Positions 49,642-50,569 of a DNA stretch of 64,000 nucleotides are shown piece after piece. The translations under genes and the position numbers were made by a program. The notes under the pieces are model-generated. The model ran no database searches, was not told where the DNA came from, and saw nothing but the letters and a program-made list of their open reading frames with translations. This stretch comes from a virus. Numbering within the stretch: the stretch's first letter is position 1; each line of letters opens with the position of its first letter. Location of the stretch: IMG/VR virus record IMGVR_UViG_3300042350_002797, positions 300,555-364,554 of that record; one strand, given 5' to 3'.

Positions 49642-49717
49642 GCACTGGTAGCTCAACGGTTAGAGCCGGAGTCTCTAAAGCTCAAGGTTATGGGTTCGAA
49701 TCCCATTCGGTGCACCA
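49642..49717 (+). tRNA. tRNA with anticodon CUA (amber suppressor type)
   Basis: 76 nt including an encoded CCA. The acceptor GCACTGG pairs TCGGTGC (one wobble at 5, one at 7). D stem GCTC/GAGC, T arm ATGGG-TTCGAAT-CCCAT, 5-nt variable loop, discriminator A. The anticodon loop is CTCTAAA with T33, so the anticodon is CTA, which reads UAG. The anticodon stem has a G-A mismatch at 27-43 and a T-G pair at 31-39. The amino acid is not readable from the sequence; the short variable arm argues against Ser, Leu or bacterial Tyr types. Confidence 0.88.
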
Positions 49718-49732
49718 AACAAAGGAAATATT

Positions 49733-49975
49733 ATGACTTATCAATTTGAACTGGATGTCAGCACTAACATCGATGCTCAAACTGTTGAACAAATTGTTGC
49801 TAACATTGTACAAGAACGTACAGGTAAACAAGTAGATAAAATACTAACCAAAATGACCGACGGTAAGTTCGACGGTTTTGAAATACATTTTGTCAGCGAA
49901 ATAGCAGATACTACACCTAGTAAAAAAGAACATATAATTGATAAAACATTTAAGGTGTTTAAATGGGATCAATAA
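49733..49975 (+). CDS. Small soluble protein after the tRNA
   Basis: 80 residues with AAAGGAAA before the ATG. VEQIVANIVQERTGKQVDKILTKMTDGKFDGFEIHFV then a charged tail. A single alpha/beta domain. Ends 30 nt before the amber-containing gene. No family recognised. Confidence 0.68.
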   Translation: MTYQFELDVSTNIDAQTVEQIVANIVQERTGKQVDKILTKMTDGKFDGFEIHFVSEIADTTPSKKEHIIDKTFKVFKWDQ

Positions 49976-50005
49976 ATACATTGCTAATTTTTTAAGGAGA
50001 TTAAA

Positions 50006-50569
50006 ATGGCATAGATTGAATTTGCATGTGATGATATAGTTTTCCACTTTAACAAGAAACATTTGGAAGACTCGACTATTCCTATGTGGGTCGTTAAATT
50101 TCATGGGGAAACTTATTATGTAGAACACGTTGACTGCGATGTTCCGTGGAGCACAAAAGAAACGCCAACAAACAGTCATACCAAGGGCAGTATTAAGGTC
50201 AAGAATGTATTACTTACAATCGACGACAACAACTGTGCCCACATTACTAATTTAACACTAATTGATAAAGTAAGACTGCGTAACCAACGGTTAGGCATTA
50301 CTCGTATCATCTTTGCGTATGGCAATAAAATGCATAACGCCTTAATGGCTAACGAGTATAAACACAGTCCATTTAAGAACGTTAGTGGGGGATGCGGAAC
50401 TGCTTGGGTAGTTTGTGATTTACTCAAAAAGACAGAGTACACTTTGGCCAGTTTAAAATATAGCAACGATTTCAGAGTGCTCAAACCAAACGAAGCTTAT
50501 TACAAAGCCTATGATGATCCAAATCAAAAATGGATTGAAGAAGATGAACTTGACTACGAAGAGGAATGA
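50006..50569 (+). CDS. Conserved phage protein with in-frame TAG at codon 3
   Basis: ATG 50006 sits 6 nt after AAGGAG, the best site in the block, and reads ATG GCA TAG ATT GAA. From codon 4 the frame stays open to TGA at 50567-50569, giving 187 residues if TAG is read. The sequence after the TAG (IEFACDDIVFHFNKKHL, MWVVKFHGETYYVEHVDC) is coherent and resembles a conserved phage protein without known function. Later starts (TTG 50063, ATG 50084) lack a good ribosome site. It lies just downstream of the CUA tRNA. Confidence 0.82.

Follow-up and report, generated by a model that had tools for sequence, protein, structure and literature searches.

In phages that use genetic code 15 (PMC9523058, PMC13037316), a phage CUA tRNA reads TAG as sense, and the reassignment of TAG is genome-wide. 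Orphan CUA tRNAs have also been described in the standard-code phages XacN1 (PMC5852040), Summit (PMC9022506) and RsoM2USA (PMC8504454); the authors of the XacN1 and Summit studies sought targets for these amber tRNAs and reported none. In prfB, which encodes RF2 (PMC12421855), an early in-frame stop limits the gene until termination there is weak, the stop being a UGA through which RF2 is sensed. An engineered feed-forward leak dampener, in which one inducer drives both a premature-TAG gene and an amber tRNA, shows that a gate of this kind works in E. coli (PMC7969014). In searches of openly licensed PubMed Central papers, no natural amber gate confined to one gene and paired with its own tRNA was found described.

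The locus analysed here resembles each of these systems in part. As in the phages with orphan CUA tRNAs, an amber tRNA is present in a standard-code phage. As in code 15 phages, a phage CUA tRNA would read TAG as sense, but in one gene only, and TAG still serves as a rare stop. An early in-frame stop would limit the gene as in prfB, whereas no frameshift is involved, the stop would be read in-frame by a tRNA, and the gene does not encode a release factor; the features of a prfB-type +1 slippery site are lacking, the body being in the frame of the start and the codon before the TAG varying widely among the relatives. As in the engineered circuit, expression would need both the TAG gene and its amber tRNA; unlike that circuit, the gate is natural, conserved and carried by phages, and a promoter common to tRNA and gene has not been demonstrated.

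The window, i.e., the whole stretch of DNA analysed (G000:C1:300555-364554), makes up the final 64 kb of an IMG/VR record of 364,554 bp. All elements that a preliminary description had read from the letters of this stretch are in place on the plus strand. A complete amber suppressor tRNA with anticodon CTA and an encoded CCA (49642-49717) was found by both ARAGORN and Rfam (RF00005, 60.8 bits), and has a G27-A43 mismatch, as described, and a T31-G39 wobble. The distance from its end to the ATG of the gated gene, put at about 290 bp, was measured as 288 bp. An 80-aa ORF of unknown function (49733-49975) lies in between; it has no Pfam match and only a weak PHROG match (E 0.028). The gated gene consists of a Shine-Dalgarno AAGGAG (49994-49999), the start ATG (50006-50008) with the single leader codon GCA (50009-50011), the amber TAG with A as the +4 base (50012-50014), an open body of 184 codons (50015-50566) and a TGA stop (50567-50569). 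The body comprises an N domain (approximately residues 1-80) and a C domain (approximately 81-184). In the stretches of the record that were read, the CTA tRNA is the only suppressor-type one among 28 tRNAs; most of these are clustered at approximately 244-252 kb, three lie close to the window end, and the CTA tRNA stands by itself beside the gated gene.

Relatives were sought with the part of the protein after the TAG only, therefore the gate could not bias the search. This yielded 232 IMG/VR relatives (80 kept), a domain profile yielded 354 and a more divergent profile 389, in overlapping sets. In the first set the TAG precedes a conserved IE(Y/F)AC start in 80 of 80 relatives, lying one codon further up in L080 and L086 than in the rest. 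Of the 149 distinct domains, 119 have an in-frame TAG that follows an upstream start codon and precedes the first conserved residue, and in none of the 149 is it replaced by TAA or TGA. These counts include a correction by hand: the script had classified 117 as gated and 32 as open, an internal Met having led it to score L117 and L150 as ungated; the reading of these two gave 119 gated and 30 open. A pseudogene or a sequencing error, which a stop codon interrupting the frame might suggest, is already contradicted and retains practically no credibility: the same letters stand at this place in four contigs (L029-L032) of other metagenomes, which settles the caution raised at the outset about an error at the TAG, and the 119 distinct relatives with TAG are under purifying selection.

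Around the TAG, the gated relatives differ considerably. The leader is 1-12 codons long, its codons and length varying while the TAG remains constant and nearly fixed in position relative to the protein body; an SD-like motif is present in 94 of the 117 gated relatives that have an ATG leader. The +4 base is A in 113, G in 5, C in 1 and T in none of the 119. According to PMC5289835, +4U lowers readthrough in E. coli, so the absence of T fits a site meant for reading. Just upstream of the domain in L350, two successive in-frame TAGs were seen (ATG AAA TAG GAA GAA CAT TAG GTT).

Purifying selection on the protein sets in directly after the TAG: in 71 related sequences pN/pS is 0.12 over the 22 codons that follow it and 0.21 over the first 9. 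In an AlphaFold model of the body (184 residues, pLDDT 91; 93 for the domain alone) the first strand, residues 2-12, also lies immediately behind the TAG. These data bear on internal initiation or re-initiation on the body after a minigene ATG-NNN-TAG, to which we concede a slim chance. The leader ATG lies two codons before the TAG in 80 of the 119 gated relatives, and such two-codon leaders resemble the lambda bar minigenes. Leaders of up to 12 codons do not fit this explanation, nor does the codon after the TAG, which is not consistently a start (ATT in 92 relatives, otherwise ACT, AAA, AAT, AAC, GTT or CAA), and the next in-frame starts of the window, at 50063 and 50084, would remove the conserved first strand. 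Starts at these two sites in relatives would have refuted the preliminary description; the relatives do not start there, because the codons from the TAG to those sites are the conserved protein start. That the natural start is useless unless UAG is read, as had been proposed, is strongly supported by the conservation of the TAG together with the selection directly after it.

The neighbouring CTA tRNA had been named as the likely reader of this UAG, which the conservation of the TAG and the same-strand linkage strongly support. ARAGORN finds a CTA tRNA near 120 of the 149 genes (95 of the 119 gated and 25 of the 30 ungated), on the strand of the gene in all 120 scored, upstream in 98 and downstream in 22, at a median distance of 338 bp. 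A feed-forward gate calls for a TAG directly after the start, ahead of all conserved residues, and for a matching tRNA linked to the gene; both are met. With a tRNA pattern search added to ARAGORN, a CTA tRNA was found in the fetched DNA near about 110 of the 119 gated genes, and in L060 and L114 a contig-wide search located it elsewhere on the contig. In seven gated loci (L071, L080, L091, L108, L134, L323 and L340), most of them on short contigs or at a contig end, the fetched DNA holds no CTA tRNA. Several of the tRNAs missed by ARAGORN (G004, G005, G006, G009, G011, G014, G015, G017; loci L193-L205) have unusual D arms; counts of phage suppressor tRNAs are therefore probably too low. As the tRNA is sometimes several kilobases from the gene, or downstream of it, a common transcript with the gene is not shown.

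The anticodon stems of these tRNAs are irregular. Pair 31:39 is mismatched in 57 of 82 distinct CTA tRNAs versus 11 of 294 other tRNAs of the same loci, and pair 27:43 in 26 of 82 versus 39 of 294. According to PMC13092985, a tRNA-Thr with the G27-A43 mismatch outperforms an engineered 5-bp version in UAG reading when given a CUA anticodon, and unpinned stems of such kind favour stop-codon reading; the early suggestion that the 27-43 mismatch tunes the tRNA thereby gains support from outside. The CUA tRNAs of XacN1 have the same CCTCTAAAAC loop with C31-A39 as the amber tRNAs here. A 2.5-kb unannotated gap after the two CUA tRNAs of XacN1 (L303:36560-39053) was considered as a site for a gated gene and rejected; its contents resemble degenerate or missed tRNAs, not a gated gene. 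The acceptor ends are mostly G1:C72, C2:G71 and A73. The isotype is ambiguous by similarity (Thr is nearest for 42 of 127), its features are not uniform, and "tRNA-Pyl" is merely the name ARAGORN gives to anticodon CTA.

To see how TAG is used elsewhere, stretches of this genome and of two relatives (genomes of approximately 340-364 kb), holding 637 conserved gene copies, were scanned for frames conserved across a shared TAG. The conserved genes end in TAA, TGA and TAG 167, 71 and 5 times in this genome and 149, 80 and 14, and 99, 44 and 8 times in the relatives; TAG triplets outnumber TGA triplets in the window, though TAG is avoided as a stop. In the three genomes no conserved protein gene other than the gated one was found to have an in-frame TAG: the remaining matches across a shared TAG were translated tRNA genes and a single short, weak match. 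Genes that are not conserved could have been missed. An all-frame scan of the loci for conserved TAG had returned mostly antisense frames of real genes and was replaced by masking of the conserved genes. Genetic code 15, with TAG read as sense throughout the phage, deserves hardly any credence on these data: it could account for the CUA suppressor tRNA and the rarity of TAG stops, but the many genes with in-frame TAG that it entails are missing and some conserved genes end in TAG, so that it appears already contradicted for the three genomes at the sensitivity used.

We propose that the gene is probably controlled by a dedicated amber gate whose UAG is read by a suppressor tRNA that the phage itself encodes; readthrough, charging, co-transcription and timing are inferred. 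From the ribosome site and ATG, followed by a very short leader and UAG, ordinary initiation would yield only a very short peptide. A CUA tRNA, encoded on the same strand and usually a few hundred bases to a few kilobases away, would be made and processed, presumably be charged by a host synthetase, and compete with release factor 1 at the UAG, giving the full protein. If tRNA and gene were co-transcribed, this would constitute a coherent feed-forward (AND) gate, with no protein made before functional suppressor has built up; that the protein is made only then, as first suggested, is inferred and not shown. Such a gate might serve to delay a harmful protein or to sense amber suppression. The support is of the sequence kind, namely (i) conservation of the TAG; (ii) amber specificity; (iii) coding selection after the TAG; (iv) same-strand linkage; and (v) the lack of another conserved TAG gene, and the data are explained most simply if the phage tRNA reads the UAG. 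Against the gate stand the lack of direct evidence for readthrough, charging or expression and the occurrence of rare TAG stops in many genomes for other reasons. A gate of this kind would provide a specific, conserved target for the amber suppressor tRNAs of standard-code phages, whose purpose had been open, and a natural counterpart to the engineered gene-control circuit. Gene callers cut or skip such genes; others may be sought by a simple rule, i.e., a start, a leader of few codons, TAG and, immediately downstream, a conserved frame.

The ungated relatives do not form a group apart. A tree of the 149 domains, built from 74 columns and weak in its finer branching, requires 10 changes of gate state (9-10 when bootstrapped), of which well-supported branches force 7. 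Ungated tips are nested among gated ones, e.g. L158 beside L156. The ungated L154, L158 and L178 have an ATG at or next to the gate position; the inserted residue therefore appears dispensable. In selenocysteine and pyrrolysine decoding, too, a special tRNA serves a stop codon in few genes, and the nearly fixed position of the TAG relative to the body could indicate that a particular amino acid is needed there, but the dispensable residue, the variable leader length, the site at the extreme N-terminus and the non-uniform isotype features of the tRNAs make this very improbable. From the sequences, the gate is more likely to be regulatory than chemical.

Within the phage collection searched, the protein family was found only in RHph_I1_18, Atu_ph07 and Phosso. 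The cultured Rhizobium phage RHph_I1_18 has a short gated form, ATG AGT GAG TTC ATG TAG followed by a 76-codon body, with an annotated tRNA-Pyl(cta) just downstream and nothing annotated at the match itself. In Atu_ph07 and Phosso the domain is ungated and forms the C-terminal part of a longer ORF; the suppressor tRNA of Atu_ph07 was reported as opal, not amber (PMC6102473). In three ungated phages, Atu_ph07, Phosso and that of L118 (L109, L110 and G024:C1:49815-50174), a gene for a Pth2 peptidyl-tRNA hydrolase is found near the domain gene. An ungated copy of the domain on a Paenibacillus genome contig (L112:5965-6219) sits within an array of 12 tRNA genes; a CTA call by our script at this locus conflicts with ARAGORN and was not relied on.

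The retention of the amber tRNA by most ungated relatives implies that the link does not exist solely for the decoding of the gene's own TAG. By analogy with prfB, the gated protein might itself act on amber decoding, i.e., on the suppressor tRNA, release factor 1 or peptidyl-tRNA, its own UAG being the sensor. This feedback, which would extend the gate and not exclude it, we regard as possible but somewhat doubtful. The tRNAs linked to ungated genes, the neighbouring Pth2 genes, the copy inside the Paenibacillus tRNA array and an RF1-type factor gene approximately 2-3 kb upstream of the domain in one ungated clade are in its favour; the linkage could be inherited from gated ancestors, and there is no biochemical hint. 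Pfam, PHROG and NCBIfam gave no match above cut-off for the gated protein, and fold searches of the PDB, run for the entire protein and for its N domain separately, gave nothing reliable; the viral matches of the fold search are mainly uncharacterised phage proteins. A WW domain (PF00397) was rejected: matches in 8 of 62 members, with a best E of 0.063, fall short of the Pfam gathering score, and the resemblance to WW chains is short only. That the locus is a natural one-gene amber switch whose product controls amber decoding in a self-sensing circuit, to which some relatives add an RF1-type factor with a conserved UGA or a CUU-UAG-C shift site, is a rather unlikely, speculative extension.

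A separate family of small ORFs (80 aa, approximately 470 bp downstream of the gene start, e.g. L159:4464-4778) is similar to the C-terminal domain of the long form. Release factor genes of some related phages have stops of their own. In an ungated clade (L325:1-200, L329:1040-1260 and L349:1230-1480) the 5' part of the RF1-type factor gene lies in a different frame from the rest, with CTT-TAG-C at the junction; this site resembles the +1 shift site of prfB, CTT-TGA-C, with TAG instead. The relatives L318, L322, L343 and L353 have two in-frame TGAs in place of CTT-TAG-C. A phage release factor lacks domain 1 and has an RF1-type motif (QRVPPTE..GRVHTS) and an intact GGQ (L391-L430; G018:C1:231273-231590, G023:C1:63369-63683, G024:C1:282069-282389). 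An in-frame TGA breaks its gene at one shared codon in all 38 readable loci, 28 of them distinct, and this looks like a second, putative stop-gated gene.
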